Under the pieces are notes generated by a model. It saw only the letters and a list, made by a program, of their open reading frames with translations. It had not been told where the DNA came from and made no database searches. Made by a program: the position numbers and the translations under genes. A DNA stretch of 34,923 nt from Melioribacteraceae bacterium (GTDB taxonomy: Bacteria; Bacteroidota; Ignavibacteria; Ignavibacteriales; Melioribacteraceae). The stretch covers positions 1 to 34,923 of the forward strand of contig JALSTB010000157.1 in the NCBI GenBank assembly GCA_026983955.1, read 5' to 3'. Below, piece by piece: positions 1 to 121 of this stretch. Numbering within the stretch: position 1 is the stretch's first letter; the number at the start of each line of letters is the position of its first letter.

Positions 1-92
1 TAGCGTAGCCCAGTTGTAGAGCATCTGCCTTTTAAGCGGAGGGTCGGTGGTTCTGCCGCAGGCATCCCTTCGGGAGAGCCCACCCGCGCTCA
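1..92 (+). tRNA. tRNA-Lys(UUU)-like gene, 5' truncated, T-loop interrupted by 22 nt
   Basis: The anticodon arm is intact: stem TCTGC (27-31) pairs with GCGGA (39-43) around the loop CTTTTAA, giving anticodon TTT. The T stem GGTGG (46-50) pairs with CCACC (80-84), but its loop reads TTC (51-53), then 22 extra bases (54-75), then GAGC (76-79). The 3' acceptor strand is 85-91 with discriminator A92; CCA is not encoded. Further oddities are a D-loop with one G instead of GG, a C:A mismatch in the D stem, and 5' acceptor bases at window positions 1-2 that do not pair with 88-89. The first two bases of the gene lie outside the window. It may be a tRNA pseudogene, or a tRNA carrying an inserted element. 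Lys identity is clear; function is doubtful. Confidence 0.6.
54..75 (+). repeat. 22-nt double-hairpin insert in the tRNA T-loop
   Basis: The insert consists of two adjacent mini-palindromes: TGCC-GCA-GGCA (54-64) and TCCC-TTC-GGGA (65-75). Removing exactly these bases restores a canonical T-loop, TTCGAGC. It looks like a short palindromic mobile or dispersed repeat. I see no second copy in this window, so the repeat status is inference. Confidence 0.45.
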
Positions 93-96
93 CACG

Positions 97-121
97 AACC
101 CGGCAAAAGCCGGGTTTTTTG
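97..121 (+). terminator. Intrinsic terminator after the tRNA
   Basis: The stem AACCCGGC (97-104) pairs perfectly with GCCGGGTT (109-116) around an AAAA loop and runs directly into a T tract (115-120). The T tract is only on the plus strand, so it serves the tRNA and not the converging glycosidase gene. Confidence 0.85.

Follow-up and report, generated by a model that had tools for sequence, protein, structure and literature searches.

The stretch of DNA analysed here (hereafter the window: 34,923 nucleotides, contig JALSTB010000157.1 of the Melioribacteraceae bacterium assembly GCA_026983955.1) begins, at positions 1-92, with a copy of tRNA-Lys(UUU) whose T-loop is split exactly between C56 and G57 by two small palindromes, TGCCGCAGGCA-TCCCTTCGGGA. 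The question arises as to what such a copy represents: a tRNA gene killed by a palindromic element or a tRNA that tolerates or processes its insert, as a first-pass annotation had proposed, or one member of a family of repeats. The features of the locus are the following.

1..92, + strand: decayed tRNA-Lys(UUU) copy, truncated at its 5' end by the start of the contig (about 2 first bases missing); acceptor 5' strand lost, D-loop GG changed to TG, anticodon TTT kept.
46..92, + strand: plugged T-arm module, made of T-stem 5' strand, TTC, two-hairpin plug, T-stem 3' strand and acceptor 3' strand.
54..64, + strand: plug hairpin 1, TGCC-GCA-GGCA, read from the sequence; family known in relatives.
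65..75, + strand: plug hairpin 2, TCCC-TTC-GGGA, read from the sequence; family known in relatives.
76..92, + strand: tRNA 3' tail, from position 57 to the discriminator, with 0 mismatches relative to the intact tRNA-Lys on contig C83 of the same genome.
97..120, + strand: GC-rich hairpin and T-run, terminator-like, read directly from the sequence.

The insert, or plug (positions 54-75, TGCCGCAGGCATCCCTTCGGGA, 22 nt), lies between GGTTC (49-53) and GAGCC (76-80), and consists of two perfect 11-nt hairpins, in both of which a 4-bp stem closes a 3-nt loop. Its junction is unique, in that no alternative shift is possible, it comes without target-site duplication, and the chance expectation of the pattern within the window is 0.00; the discrete insertion and its two mini-palindromes, both described at first reading, therefore stand. 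Taken in isolation, the 47-nt plugged arm folds slightly better than its shuffles (z -2.0), and it can alternatively form a single long hairpin, because the two plug loops are partly complementary. The module scores 61.9 bits with a covariance model of the plugged T-arm (R1), and its architecture is common to 45 aligned copies, the covariation counts of which are no independent evidence, the copies having been chosen for pairing. Neither ARAGORN nor Rfam calls a tRNA at positions 1-92, and the Rfam scan of the window gave no match over threshold. We draw attention to the fact that such plugged copies are silently missed by tRNA finders.

A 96% identical locus, with the same insert and a complete 5' end, is found on contig C83 (C83:371-462), and a search of the genome for another tRNA-Lys(UUU) yielded an intact copy on the same contig, 294 bp upstream of the plugged one. 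In the C83 plugged copy, the acceptor 5' strand reads TTTAGCG in place of the GGGCGCG of the working gene, and therefore pairs poorly, which bears out the acceptor mismatch suspected from the truncated window copy. The D-loop had been thought to lack one G; it carries in fact a substitution (AGTGGTAG to AGTTGTAG), in the window allele only. The terminator-like hairpin at 97..120 was duplicated along with the tRNA tail, and is also present behind the intact tRNA-Lys. Since the same insert stands on C83 downstream of an intact tRNA-Lys, both an assembly error and the killing of a sole gene are excluded: the initial proposal was right as to the palindromic element and wrong as to the loss of a needed gene, the carrier being a decayed duplicate with an intact copy upstream. 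The ends of C83 and C157 overlap over about 460 bp, and the two versions may correspond to one site in two strains, or to two units of an array. What can be stated safely is that the window copy is a dead tRNA-Lys duplicate carrying a plug.

Other tRNA species of the same genome are concerned as well. The covariance model gave nine matches, of which five are plugged sites, on five contigs, the remaining four being opposite-strand echoes. The copies of tRNA-Lys, tRNA-Ser(UGA), tRNA-Ser(GCU) and tRNA-Arg(ACG) all have two-hairpin plugs of 22 nt, which differ in sequence. C173 carries an intact tRNA-Ser(UGA) and, behind it, a decayed copy plugged in both the anticodon loop (between positions 35 and 36: TGCGCAGCATCCCGTTGGGA) and the T-loop (TGCCGCAGGCATCCCTACGGGA); on C19, the T-loop of a tRNA-Ser(GCU) copy holds TCCCGTAGGGA-CTCGTTCCGAG, and a further hairpin is found in its anticodon arm; on C171, near the contig end, a tRNA-Arg(ACG) tail (C171:31838-31884) is plugged by CTCCGCAGGAG-TCCCTTCGGGA. 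This last plug has apparently been flipped between congeners, genome G001 having TCCCAAAGGGACTCCTATGGAG, to be compared with TCCCGAAGGGACTCCTGCGGAG, the reverse complement of the plug in the window's genome. The tRNA loci read from this assembly included no intact tRNA-Arg(ACG), probably owing to an assembly gap. Extra tails were looked for around 33 tRNA genes, of which only tRNA-Lys(UUU) and tRNA-Ser(UGA) had any, plugged in both cases; the sites of tRNA-Ser(GCU) and tRNA-Arg(ACG) were found later, by the covariance model.

The single, isolated insertion event pictured at first reading does not fit the relatives either: plugs of varied sequence recur at the same T-loop position, in many tRNA species and many genomes. 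Searched over 84,980 species, a T-loop-specific pattern retrieved 37 stretches; they belong to Ignavibacteria, Balneolaceae, Cyclobacteriaceae and further assemblies that carry the label Bacteroidetes or Chlorobiota. Model R1 matched 49 of 395 genomes of the phylum, about one in eight, a count that rests on a model trained on these very plugs and would miss others. A structural search rule gave 56 distinct matches in the loci examined, versus 3 when the sequence was reversed or complemented. For 23 of 42 loci with a T-loop insert, an intact gene of that tRNA is found upstream in the same orientation, at a distance of 36-454 bp; many of the remaining loci start near a contig edge. The 5' half of the tRNA is missing from most plugged copies. 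Plugs are mostly 22 nt long, lengths of 44 and 63-65 nt also being found, and several plugs deviate in length (18, 19 and 23 nt) or in type (single hairpins), so that the two-hairpin plug is the commonest form and not the sole one. In the tRNA neighbourhoods of five relatives, we counted by eye about 50 extra tRNA 3' ends (four of the five genomes having been picked for carrying plugs); about 40 were plugged in the T-loop, 5 had a hairpin replacing the anticodon arm, about 2 were plain, and the others were broken.

Many plugged tails stand in tandem arrays, which reach 15 units. Behind tRNA-Thr(UGU), G093 has a dozen or so 112-bp units, each made of plugged arm, tail and terminator; 5 units follow tRNA-Pro(GGG) in G244, and 3 units of 306 bp, each with a GIY-YIG-like reading frame, follow tRNA-Ser(UGA) in G091. 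On the minus strand of contig C6 of G025 (L233), 15 units of 63 bp stand behind tRNA-Arg(CCU), each consisting of a tRNA tail with a single-hairpin plug; the spacing of this array is CRISPR-like, yet its spacers are mutually similar. Over 14 arrays, E. coli tyrT included, variable columns represent 36 of 697 in the module versus 162 of 1347 in the spacers (p = 2e-7 when pooled, array columns not being independent and GC content being unmatched), and the module is the less variable part in 12 of 13 informative arrays. Changes inside the plug are 11 in loops, 5 in stems with pairing preserved and 3 that break a pair. As judged from sequence comparison, the lower variability of the module argues for constraint, while GC content or local gene conversion could produce it instead of selection.

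Taking these loci together, we lean, with modest conviction, towards the view that plugged tRNA-tail repeats form a recurrent class, that the window feature is one such unit, and that the class is probably kept for some role; a role is suggested because the plugged module of the arrays changes less than the spacers. Comparison of the copies shows the tandem duplication, behind the intact gene, of a stretch that runs from the 3' part of a tRNA gene into the flank downstream, in many cases including the terminator. A double-hairpin element (2 x 11 nt) would then have entered the T-loop between positions 56 and 57, a position that can be read directly in the copies and at which the conserved TTC^RA matches the ^GA preference of this element outside tRNAs. 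From what the structure of tRNA implies, a copy deprived of its T-loop should no longer dock with the D-loop nor serve as a tRNA, and would become a silent tail. Such units can multiply into arrays, with the observed difference between module and spacers, and the module would probably be retained, most likely in the manner of tyrT/RtT, as a stable hairpin that the tRNA transcription unit yields as a by-product.

The first-pass annotation knew of no precedent for this position; the tyrT repeats of E. coli provide one. These 178-bp repeats (RtT, RF00391, rttR) likewise follow a tRNA gene in tandem, every unit closing with a tRNA 3' end, and the repeats behind tyrT/tyrV of K-12 (L262) read AAGGTTCGA...hairpins...TAATCCTT, that is, tRNA-Tyr tails with a hairpin-filled T-loop. 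As far as the E. coli layout can be read from sequence, the units described here are built in the same way, with a tRNA 3' end at the end of the unit and hairpins for a T-loop. The K-12 plug hairpins include TGCCGCAGGCA (or TGCCACAGGCA) followed by CCCGAAGGG, both similar to the present plug, and the first of these is the window's own 11-mer, a likeness that may be due either to shared descent or to chance. The tyrT repeats differ, however, by a plug of about 75 nt (22 here), by the 178-bp unit, by a 10-bp helix formed with an upstream partner strand, and by belonging to another phylum. The RF00391 covariance model gave 4 matches in E. coli K-12 (133-138 bits) and none at E <= 1 in the sources from the window's phylum, and therefore the present loci, though alike in build, are not RtT members. 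Conversely, R1 matched only intact tRNA-Tyr T-arms in E. coli, because the tyrT plug is too long for it. In one E. coli strain examined, SK1144, the two tRNA-Tyr genes stand 33 bp apart, with no RtT match. RtT RNA reportedly arises by release from the transcript of the tRNA (PMC4986893, citing Bosl and Kersten 1991) and acts on the stringent response (PMC4986893); RtT-like sequences have also been assigned to BIMEs (PMC2965389). In the literature searched, with thin coverage of subscription journals and original papers, we found none on plugged tRNA tails outside tyrT.

A wider proposal, which we put forward tentatively and with the expectation that it may well fail, is that plugged tails form a functional class, phylum-wide and including E. 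coli tyrT, selected either for an RNA by-product or because they act as blocked integrase sites and so protect tRNA genes; the tyrT repeats of E. coli would then hold the same T-loop-plugged module, so far unrecognised as such. If the module is under selection, this would explain the look of the E. coli tyrT repeats, and the old question of the purpose of tRNA-tail repeats would become testable by comparison of many genomes.

Four further scenarios are considered for the plugged tails themselves. According to the first, which we hold to be rather unlikely, the plugged tails reflect pure survivorship: a REP-like mobile double hairpin would hit ^GA sites, be purged from working tRNAs and be tolerated in duplicates, without any role, and the heterology brought by the plug may in addition protect the duplicate against deletion. 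The 22-nt plug family is indeed dispersed at unrelated sites in this genome and in relatives, also outside tRNAs (the reversed-pattern control gave 0 in 146 genomes), so that the palindromic-element reading survives the search for further copies of the insert. GA directly follows the commonest plug in 11 of 20 unselected non-tRNA copies, counted by eye, against a background of 6.5%; a larger figure, 31 of 45, includes tRNA-arm copies failing the pairing filter and is unusable. Where a tRNA has A57, AA comes after the plug, and GA is therefore the target and not a part of the element. The conserved T-loop motif TTC^RA fits this preference, and the insertion of a palindromic element at C^RA is supported, whether or not survivorship holds. 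On either side of non-tRNA copies, palindromy is at the level of random sites (4.2 vs 4.0), and we rejected a general insertion into hairpin loops. Viral contigs gave no exact match to the insert, and plasmids only a short, chance-like one.

REP and BIME sequences, small palindromic repeats and the double-hairpin elements of fungal mitochondria are likewise short, dispersed palindromes with two hairpins. Unlike REP/BIME, the present plugs often occupy one position of tRNA tails, and the Y1/RAYT transposase domain (PF01797) is absent from the window's genome, the same search being positive in 5 of 14 control genomes. The palindromic elements of Rickettsia, which are found in RNA and protein genes, are much longer than the plug described here; they are not known to be tied to tRNA tails or to a single loop position.

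The Cyclobacteriaceae genome G519 also speaks for survivorship. Its tRNA-Thr(CGU) (G519:C1:655109-655185, L344/L082) is full-length, well paired and plugged in the T-loop, and no intact tRNA-Thr(CGU) was found among the 36 tRNA matches detected; the genome has a tRNA-Thr(UGU), able to read the same codon. This looks like a direct insertion into a dispensable tRNA, and duplication does not always come first. However, survivorship without a role predicts that plain tails should be common near tRNAs, and they are rare; nor does it account for the two-hairpin form staying while the plug sequence varies, or for array modules being less variable than spacers. If the module is not selected, what is left is a small palindrome with a sharp landing site in one of biology's most conserved motifs.

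The second scenario, which appears distinctly doubtful, is that the tails are relics or decoys of integrase attachment sites, the module spanning the stretch that integrases directed at tRNA genes recognise (T-stem, T-loop and tRNA 3' end) with the plug in the crossover region, so that it would be bound and not recombined. The T-loop and the anticodon loop, both of them plugged here, are known crossover places (PMC3146451, PMC2647930, citing Williams 2002), and the ssrA islands of Dehalococcoides have multiple tRNA-type 3' ends downstream of the gene, with the boundary in the T-loop (PMC3146451). The direct repeats formed by tRNA or tmRNA 3' ends around islands are, in contrast, about 20 bp long, unplugged, and flank islands, whereas here they are plugged and 60-400 bp apart. 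Integrase genes or fragments adjoin tRNA tails in G037 and G005 only; near the plugged sites of the window's own genome there is no integrase, nor an integrase-bearing mobile element between the tRNA and its 3' copy, and units of 63-120 bp fall well below the size of integrated elements.

Returning to the first-pass suggestion of a working tRNA, from which the insert would be spliced out or in the T-loop of which it would be tolerated, we consider it very improbable and find it unsupported at this locus. A tRNA intron is a removable insert in a functional sole gene; the window copy is without its acceptor 5' strand, an intact sister gene exists, and most plugged copies miss the 5' tRNA half. 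The question is kept alive by G519, the only detected tRNA-Thr(CGU) of which is plugged as described, but this tRNA is replaceable by the tRNA-Thr(UGU) of the same genome. Finally, an assembly artefact, suggested by a copy that sits at base 1 of its contig, has a negligible chance of being the explanation, with the 96% identical insert-bearing copy lying inside C83 and the design recurring in independent assemblies.

Some of these neighbourhoods have further peculiarities. In G037 (L066/L105), plugged tails have as neighbours a tail without interruption, a DUF3987 gene and a fragment that resembles the C-terminus of a tyrosine recombinase, the fragment having no match in Pfam. Copies of tRNA-Pro, tRNA-Thr and tRNA-Val (L212 and L214 in G005, L244 in G016) combine a plain T-loop with a perfect hairpin replacing the anticodon arm, downstream of an intact gene. 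Lastly, three separate lineages have small GIY-YIG nuclease-like reading frames between their tRNA-Ser copies, with one frame in each repeat unit (C173 of the window's genome, L007 194-435 and 614-880; L104; and contig C1 of G091, L309); these frames may represent a mobile cassette.
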